Part shown: one piece after another, positions 10,313 to 63,888 of the stretch
Layout: each line of letters starts with the position of its first letter
Position numbering within the stretch: the stretch's first letter is position 1
Assembly (NCBI GenBank): GCA_009746045.1
Contig: RPFO01000934.1
Span: 124,001 to 188,000, forward strand
Reading direction: 5' to 3'
Source of the DNA: Mesostigma viride
Taxonomy: Eukaryota; Streptophyta; Mesostigmatophyceae; Mesostigmatales; Mesostigmataceae
Length of the DNA stretch: 64,000 nucleotides
Translations under genes and position numbers: made by a program
Notes under the pieces: model-generated
The model's input: the letters and a program-made list of their open reading frames with translations, nothing else
Databases searched by the model: none
What the model was told of the DNA's origin: nothing

Positions 10313-13300
10313 CTGCCACGCAAATAAGGGCAAAATTATGCAAAAATATTCAACTCTTATCAAAGGTGCCCGCAAAAAATGCAGAGATTCATGGACACAA
10401 ACAGGATCAAGATCATGGGATCGACAAGGAAAGACGGTGGTGGTGGTGGAGGTGGTGGTGGTGGTAATGGTGGTGGTGGTGGTGGTGGTAATGGTGGTGG
10501 TGGTGGTGGTGGTGGTGGTGGTGGTGGTGGTGGTGGTGGTGGTGGTGGTGGTGGCGGTGGTGGTGGTGGTGGTGGTGGTGGTGGTGGTGGTGGTGGTGGC
10601 GGCGGCGGCGGTGGCGGTGGCGGTGGCGGTGGTGGCGGTGGGGGTGGTGGGGGTGGGGGTGGTGGTTGCAACAGTGGCGGCGGCAGCGGCGGTGGCGGTG
10701 GCGGTGGCGGTGATTATGAATACCCTGATGATGAAAACTCTGACAGGCAACCCTGACATTCATGATGGTGATGACGACGAGGAGCAACGAATCATGAGCG
10801 AGCAACAAGGAACGAGAACTGAGCGAGTAGCATGCGCACTCCTGGGCGGTACGGCCTACAGCAGTAACCTAACATGCATATCGAGGAGTCAACAATATAC
10901 CTGGGCGGTACGACCGACAGCAGACGCTCCACCGTGCGGTTGGGGGCGCGCGTGAGGGGGCCCAGCGCCACGCCGCAGCGGCAGCAACAGGGCGGACCCT
11001 CGACAGGCCACGATAGCGGACCCTGGCCATCCTCTGTACAGGCAACGATCGGCGCCGCAGTGGATGGGGGGAGCGTCAACGGAGGGGGCAGCCCGGCGGT
11101 CACTCTCGTCAGCGGCCGCCCCGCTGATGTCAGCACCACCGGCGTTGCCGCTGATGTCATCGTGAGGGCCAACCCGTTCCCTCCAGGCACTTGGTGTGTG
11201 CCGTTGACGGCATAAGTGTGCCCGTGGGCATAAGCAGACGTGTGCTGCGTGGCAGGCAGGGATGGCAGCGGCAGGGAATGCCCACGCCCACTACCCTGGG
11301 GTTGCAAAGCCACCCCCGCCGCCACTGCCTGGGCCTTAACGGACTGGCCATGGGCGAAAGAAGGGGTGACCGCCAATGCCCCGCCTCCGCTGCCCCGGAC
11401 GCCCGCACCTTCCCCGCTGACCCCACCCACACCGCCCCCGCTGGTGCTGCTGCCAGGCGTCTTGGGCGGGGAGGCCCGCTGGCCGGACGAGCGCGATGCA
11501 CTCCGGCGTTTCGACTTCTTCTTCACGCCGCCGCCGCTGCTCACGCCAGGGGCGTCCCTGGACCCTGAGTGGGACCCCGAGGACCGGCTGCCCTCGCTGC
11601 TGTTAGTCGCTTGACGCAAGGAGCCTGAGGATGCGGTAGCCGCCATGCCGTTTCCCGTCTGGTCTCTGCTCACGAGGGGCTCATCGTCTCCCGAACACGC
11701 TCTGCCCATTATACCGGCTCCCAAAAGGTCTCTACCCAGGGCGCCGGCTTCTGCGATGGGACTCGGGGACGATAGCGGGGAAGATGACGACTGTGGGGGA
11801 GCGGCATAACTGATAATGGGGGCGATCGATGAGACTTTCACCTTCGCCAAGGACGTCTCCGAGGATGCAGCCTGGGCGCCGGATGTGCCTGAACTGGGCA
11901 AACGCTCTTGCAGGGAGAGGCTTGATTGGCCGGTGGTTTCTGAGCGGGCAGGCAGGTTAGATGGGGCTGCGCCGCCATCACTCATGGAGAGCTGTGCTTC
12001 AATGCCCCGTTTGTTCTGCTTTCCCCCGCCACGCACCTCGTTCCCGCCGGCCCCCTCCCCTGGGGTGGCCTCCTGGATGGTGGCGTTGGTGGCCTTGGTG
12101 GCAGAAGTAATGATGCTGCCGCTGCCGCCAGCACCGCAGGCAGAAGAAGGCATCCGCACGTATCCACCGCCGCCGTTCCCATGAACTCCCATGGTGTCGC
12201 CACCGCCACCGTCCTTCCCAGTGCTGTTGTTCTGGGGGGCTGGCAGCCCTGTTATGCACGTGCTGACGGTGCTAGTATTAGAGATGGTCATGCCGGGCGG
12301 TACTGTGGCAGCACTGGTGGCAGTATCTCCCGTGATGGTAGTCGAGGCGGTAATAATAGAAGTGGTTGTGCCGGGTGGCAGCACGGTGGCGGTGAGAGTA
12401 GCAGAGGTGGCCATGCCGGGTGGCAGTGCGGCGATCCTGGCACCTGGCGTCGGGGCCAGGGTGGACGTGAGCGAGGACTGGCGCGTGAGGCTTGCGGTGG
12501 ATGTCGTGGACGGGGTTGCGAGGGAGTGGCAAGTCGCGCAGAGTTCGCGGCCAGCCCGCCCCGCCTGCGCATCCGCCAGCACCTGCCAGGTGGTTACAAC
12601 AGGAAAGCAAATTGTAAAAAAAAGACGCGGGAACCAGAGGTAGCAAGCCTCCCATGAGGTACCAGGTAGGGTTCCGTCGAATCCTACTACACGCGGAGGG
12701 AAGGCGCCCAGTTTCCTCTCACTAGCAGGAGGCAGGCCACGGAGGAGAAGGGAAAAGGAGAAAGAGGCTGTGCAAGGGGGAAAGAAGGGTGTATGATACA
12801 GGCGAAGGGGCTGCATAATGGAAGAGGCTGTGCGATGTGGAAAGAAGGGTGTATGATACAGGCGAAGGGGCTGCATAATGGAAGAGGCTGTGCAAGGGGG
12901 AAAGAAGGGTGTATGATACAGGCGAAGGGGCTGCATAATGGAAGAGGCTGTGCGATGTGGAAAGAAGGGTGTATGATACAGGCGAAGGGGCTGCATCATG
13001 GAAGAGGCTGTGCAAGGGGGAAAGAAGGGTGTATGATACAGGCGAAGGGGCTGCATAATGGAAGAGGCTGTGCAAGGGGCAAAGAAGGGTGTATGATACA
13101 GGCGAAGGGGCTGCATCATGGAAGAGGCTGTGCAAGGGGGAAAGAAGGGTGTATGATACAGGCGAAGGGGCTGCATAATGGAAGAGGCTGTGCAAGGGGG
13201 AAAGAAGGGTGTATGATACAGGCGAAGGGGCTGCATAATGGAAGAGGCTGTGCAAGGGGGAAAGAAGGGTGTATGATACAGGCGAAGGGGCTGCATAATG

Positions 13301-63888: not shown

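Follow-up and report, generated by a model that had tools for sequence, protein, structure and literature searches.

Copies of exon edges within the introns of three neighbouring gene models of Mesostigma viride: mirage-like structures probably produced by local tandem duplication

Why should introns contain additional copies of the junctions that bound them? The question is raised by three neighbouring gene models of Mesostigma viride, a unicellular streptophyte alga, which lie in a window of 64,000 nucleotides (contig RPFO01000934.1, positions 124,001 to 188,000 of the forward strand, assembly GCA_009746045.1). At several of their junctions a short segment spanning the exon edge and its splice site is repeated in the adjacent intron or flank. 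According to the available text of the published genome of this species, its introns have a mean length of 1142 bp and repetitive elements make up 30.1% of intron space (PMC6947507). No boundary duplication was found in the available passages of two M. viride genome papers, this one included, on introns, repeats, splicing and tandem duplication.

The gene models and the copies are provided in Table 1. In addition to exons kin1 to kin10, the kinase gene has a short first exon upstream of kin1, with the start codon at 24922. Its kinase domain shares 100% identity with Mv01555-RA (P0137, 1136 aa), a public model of M. viride. A tblastn search of the window with P0137 recovered all exons from kin1 to kin10, and the protein joined from kin2 to kin7 aligned to NEK1 without gaps at the joins. 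The alignment and the public model thus support the predicted exon joins, and misplaced kinase exon boundaries were ruled out. The kelch gene gave a clean translation over its joins and matched kelch families. Gene 2 is the weakest of the three models, since its joined frame is open but had no Pfam match. Regarding the architecture of the kinase (8630-24922, minus strand), the NEK-type domain comes after a long N-terminal region that appears to contain membrane segments. Judged by eye, the domain ends in the last two exons, behind one long low-complexity exon. Eight of the ten exons (kin1, kin3, kin4, kin5, kin7, kin8, kin9 and kin10; 8630-24734, minus strand) start with GT, and most kinase junctions therefore read gt...ag/GT, possibly a trace of AGGT proto-splice sites or of introns born by duplication.

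Table 1. Exons of the three gene models and copies of their edges, in positions of the window
Feature	Positions	Strand	Remarks
Kinase exon kin1	23854-24734	minus	Edge test used 24733
Kinase exon kin2	22897-22953	minus	Gly-loop ...GEGGFGK; real donor GTGAGC
Kinase exon kin3	21146-21280	minus	
Kinase exon kin4	19913-20065	minus	
Kinase exon kin5	19291-19437	minus	
Kinase exon kin6	18217-18276	minus	
Kinase exon kin7	16066-16182	minus	
Kinase exon kin8	10901-12582	minus	
Kinase exon kin9	10223-10312	minus	
Kinase exon kin10	8630-8711	minus	
Kelch exon 1 (kel1)	63739-63888	minus	
Kelch exon KL2 (kel2)	62177-62359	minus	
Kelch exon KL3 (kel3)	61366-61541	minus	Stop-bearing
Kelch KL2, KL3 and intervening intron	61366-62359	minus	
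Gene 2 exons	26926-27328, 28846-29036	plus	Second exon, G2b; joined frame open
kin2 donor-edge array	21846..22896	minus	Core units 37-40 bp; 31 bp and longer in degenerate distal part
kin3 donor-edge copy, diverged	20909..20947	minus	39 nt aligned at 77%; GC in place of donor GT
kin4 donor-edge copy (copy 1)	19761..19804	minus	G-rich; match beyond donor p 0.003, single-base shuffles
kin4 donor edge, second short match (copy 2)	19590..19605	minus	E 0.45, weak
kin5 donor-edge copy	18840..18873	minus	Insert of 445 nt up to copied donor
kin6 donor-edge copy	18138..18168	minus	Exact over 31 nt (27 exon + 4 intron); 75 bp unit
kin7 acceptor-edge copy A	16251..16267	minus	AG kept
kin7 acceptor-edge copy B	16334..16380	minus	AG lost
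kin7 acceptor-edge copy C	16457..16482	minus	AG kept; lies in 65-nt stretch with 83% similarity to the one around copy A
kin8 donor-edge copy	10841..10864	minus	22/24 identical; donor GT lost
kin9 acceptor-edge copy, possible	10352..10379	minus	z 4.0, borderline; AG lost
kin9 donor-edge copy, possible	9231..9254	minus	20/24 identical; within 66-bp x 2.5 array 9163-9330
KL2 acceptor-edge copy	62427..62473	minus	81% over 47 columns; AG kept
KL2 exon start, second partial copy	62556..62575	minus	
KL3 acceptor-edge copy	61654..61699	minus	132-bp unit; intron flank also duplicated (z 11.5); AG kept
KL3 terminal-exon end, two copies in 3' flank	61252..61355	minus	Nearer one has stop codon
G2b donor-edge copies	29131-29158, 29190-29207, 29239-29253 (weak)	plus	49-bp array 29131..29253

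Both ends of every exon in Table 1 (10 of the kinase, 3 of the kelch gene and 2 of gene 2) were tested, which gave 30 edges. Each query consisted of up to 40 nt of exon and 25 nt of flank and was scored against the nearest 1500 nt of the adjacent intron or flank, where present (5' of kelch exon 1 there are only 112 nt, flank included). Scores were compared with those of dinucleotide shuffles, 200 in general and 60 in the other-side control, and z>4 was taken as the threshold. A same-strand copy was found at 14 of the 30 edges, in the kinase, the kelch gene and gene 2 (13/26 when gene 2 was left out). The same queries scored against the other side of the exon gave one match (5' edge of kin8, z 5.2) and no edge out of 30 had a reverse-complement match above the threshold (Fisher p 1.7e-4 and 1.7e-5, respectively). 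Chance was therefore rejected as the origin of the copies, and exon-edge copies in adjacent introns and flanks are a real observation. The first-pass annotation had counted about ten such junctions, which was about right, with exon numbers that map uncertainly onto kin1 to kin10. Two edges lay near the threshold: the kin9 acceptor (z 4.0), which was counted, and the kel2 donor (z 2.9), which was left out.

The junction was straddled by 13 of the 14 significant alignments, the exception being kelch exon 1, where the repeat is intron-only. Copies of donor edges were found at kin2 to kin6, kin8, kin9 and G2b (g22), and of acceptor edges at kin7, kel2, kel3 and, borderline, kin9. A blastn search with 11 exons (E up to 0.2) revealed 37 near same-strand and 3 near opposite-strand matches, and 6 far ones. 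Among the 37, two correspond to one kelch motif common to two exons, another is confined to intron sequence, and a further one lies inside an exon (nucleotides 97-121 of the 147 of kin5, E 0.003) and stops short of the edge, which counts against the explanation favoured below. Most edges other than kin2 and G2b have one to three copies each. At the acceptor of G2b (28835-28888, plus strand) a 15-bp repeat crosses into the exon and codes for SPAKR twice; if the gene model holds, it would be a boundary repeat that entered coding sequence.

The longest series is the kin2 array, with 28 donor-like units including the real one. Of its copies, 19 are clear, with identities of 0.81 to 0.97 over 36 nt, and another 8 are degenerate, at 0.47 to 0.64; the first-pass annotation had given copy numbers of up to 25. 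It had also been suggested that divergence rises with distance from the exon. This holds for the kin2 array as a whole (rho -0.68), because its distal end is degenerate. The 19 units of its core show no such trend (rho -0.08), nor do 13 edges taken together (rho -0.13, p 0.67, with identities entered by hand), and a general trend was rejected. TRF identified a higher-order period of 264 bp in this array, which together with the lack of a distance trend in the core is as unequal exchange predicts.

With respect to the origin of the copies, the sequence beyond the splice site was examined in 15 cases, the 14 significant edges and the weak kel2 donor, using single-base shuffles, a weaker null than that of the edge test. 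Eight of the 15 had this sequence duplicated as well (p up to 0.03): kin2, kin4, kin6, kin7, kel1, the kel2 acceptor, the kel3 acceptor and the kel3 end. Four of them count for less: three are arrays (kin2, kel1 and the kel3 end), and at kin7 the stretch overlaps with a further copy. The clearest is the kel3 acceptor, where the intron, though diverged, can be aligned over nearly 90 nt. In the other 7 of the 15, no significant similarity was found beyond the splice consensus, owing either to decay or to a different origin. These seven copies, together with the exact 31 nt of the kin6 copy, would favour templated insertion, in which short pieces of exon edge enter introns during break repair or template switching. 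The kin6 copy is identical over its exonic part (27/27) and clearly diverged in the adjoining intron part, a contrast greater than a two-fold difference in rate makes likely, and it counts against tandem duplication. Against templated insertion stand the absence of reverse-complement copies (0/30), the location of the copies on the side that tandem duplication predicts and the duplicated flanks of the other eight cases, and we consider it quite improbable. The same three results support the tandem duplication proposed in the first-pass annotation. The blastn matches within the window (40 near and 6 far, E up to 0.2) did not indicate spread to other loci, and an introner-like dispersal within the window was rejected.

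Repeats are also present elsewhere in the window. Tandem arrays take up most of the 3.5 kb kinase intron at 12583-16065, with units of 60 bp (25.5 copies), 22 bp (15 copies), 12 bp and 4 bp; in the 60-bp unit there is an acceptor-like cag as well as a pyrimidine tract. A purine-rich array of 5 kb with periods of 245, 373 and 495 bp and extreme GC and AT skew was located at 43361-48393, and an array of palindrome-rich GTATAC/TTTACGG units with periods of 16 to 159 bp at 50794-51213. Three frames (34294-34716, minus; 54337-54720 and 54730-55215, plus) have in common a long, nearly identical start, YQIRKACITPRTGELL..., and are probably a repeat element. Reverse-transcriptase-like frames with the motifs YADD and YADG were found at 7637-8353 (minus) and 36059-36463 (plus), the former, a retrotransposon frame, with up to 81% identity to M. 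viride proteins.

The copies had been attributed to a process seeded at exon edges. To obtain a background, the same score was computed at non-edge positions, counting either side, with 60 shuffles a position and a single sequence-complexity cut-off. The cut-off removed 30/117 intron, 5/47 exon-interior and 21/235 intergenic positions, along with a single edge (1/30). Local same-strand copies were present at 14/29 edges, 29/87 intron-interior positions (17/74 without the large arrays), 39/214 intergenic positions and 3/42 exon-interior positions. Without the cut-off the counts were 14/30, 56/117, 57/235 and 3/47, respectively. Reverse-complement matches at the cut-off amounted to 0/87 in introns, 13/214 in intergenic DNA and 2/42 within exons, so that the 3/42 of exon interiors is at control level. 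An earlier tiling (edge tiles 15/44, intron 82/321, positions 22954-25000 2/66, other 323/1665, exon interior 1/36) agrees with these counts. Local same-strand duplication is therefore characteristic of non-coding DNA in this window. The excess of edges over exon interiors would be expected without any seeding, because exon sequence reaches an intron only through a tandem duplication that crosses the edge, and because duplications within an exon change the protein.

The comparison with intron interiors is the one that bears on seeding. Since the exon half decays more slowly, this comparison was corrected by means of a simple simulation, which gave edges a detection advantage of 1.26x (integrals 0.251 and 0.199). 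The p values for the edges were 0.18 against all introns and 0.017 without the large arrays, and 0.31 and 0.02, respectively, after correction, and on these figures the proposed seeding at exon edges is not established. The weak excess that persists without the large arrays (p 0.017) nevertheless counts against the plain reading of general local duplication. Together with the fact that the kin2 array begins at the exon end, it speaks for real hot spots, at which a process tied to transcription or splicing (e.g., R-loops or the donor sequence) would trigger tandem duplication and drive intron growth. We regard such hot spots as unlikely, given the p value against all introns, the range of 0.02 to 0.31 after correction, the restriction to three genes and the non-independence of positions inside one array. 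Equally doubtful is their extension to the whole genome, in which M. viride exon ends would be true tandem-duplication hot spots, introns would grow outward from their own junctions and the outermost of many equal sites would be spliced. The matter is beyond what three genes can decide.

Minisatellite-type local tandem duplication, which introns would tolerate and selection would remove from coding sequence, is the explanation that we favour, with a probability of about 0.78. Replication slippage or unequal exchange, the mutational mechanism that we infer, would act throughout the non-coding DNA of the window. When a unit happens to cross an exon boundary, the outermost splice site would still define the exon, and the inner copy, a piece of the exon together with its splice site, would turn into intron. 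Duplications of this kind would persist because the protein is unchanged, while those within coding sequence would be removed by purifying selection. Some units would then expand to arrays, as at kin2 and G2b, and others decay. The outcome would be mirage-like structures, with longer introns and spare splice sites.

A function of the spare sites, in regulated alternative splicing or as decoy exons, must also be considered. The donor of the kin6 copy or of the first kin2 copy, if used, would add 25 or 12 codons, respectively, in frame and without stops, and 25 of the 28 units of the kin2 array keep GT, the other 3 having GC, in a search whose pattern itself required GT or GC. However, homogenisation of the array can explain its conserved units, use of the kin3, kin5 and kin8 copies or of kin4 copy 1 would shift the frame, and the kin3 copy and kin4 copy 2 would add stops. 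The consensus dinucleotide, kept at the acceptor copies of kin7 A, kin7 C, kel2 and kel3, is lost in kin7 B and in the borderline kin9 acceptor as well as in the donor copies of kin8 and kin3, the latter with GC. In addition, lancelet mirages are reported, in the available text, to leave splicing undisturbed (PMC3087553, PMC3902484). In attention to the above, a function of the spare sites is very improbable. The public kinase model P0137, which is a gene prediction, uses the outermost sites.

The case of M. viride suggests that boundary minisatellites arise wherever local tandem duplication is frequent and introns are long, and boundary copies would be raw material for intron growth and gain. 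The kin2 array, moreover, offers a natural construct, with at least a score of near-equal donors in about 1 kb, for the study of how the spliceosome picks the exon-proximal one.

Several known systems resemble the one reported here. Introner elements are also repeated sequences linked to introns and splice sites, but, according to the available text, they copy themselves into many genes (PMC9860276), whereas here the copies of each junction adjoin that junction and, with 6 far against 40 near matches, no single family was found in the introns of many genes within the window. The AGGT model of intron creation likewise has splice signals copied by tandem duplication, but there an exonic AGGT is duplicated and an intron created, while here existing junctions are copied. 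In the RdRp gene of potato, as far as the available text describes it, one tandem duplication across an intron-exon boundary, in a plant as well, gave a new intron (PMC4974935), unlike the copies of M. viride, which sit within introns. The first-pass annotation was wrong in stating that no described system matches, since the mirages of lancelets are the same in kind. The accessible text of the reports on them describes mirages for Adh3, the globins and TnC, and imperfect ones in PGBD5; their tandem units, of 10 to 160 bp and homogenised within clusters, extend over donor or acceptor junctions, and many copies keep the splice signals (PMC3087553, PMC3902484). As judged from sequence, the M. viride copies share the structural features of mirages, as they span boundaries, occur at both boundary types and include minisatellite units, although homogenised units were seen only in the kin2 array (G2b is likewise an array). 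Unlike in lancelets, many copies are single, diverged and some distance off, the host is a green alga, and of the edges tested, which belong to three neighbouring gene models, about half are affected. The mirage phenomenon would thus be placed in the green lineage, where it is locally dense.
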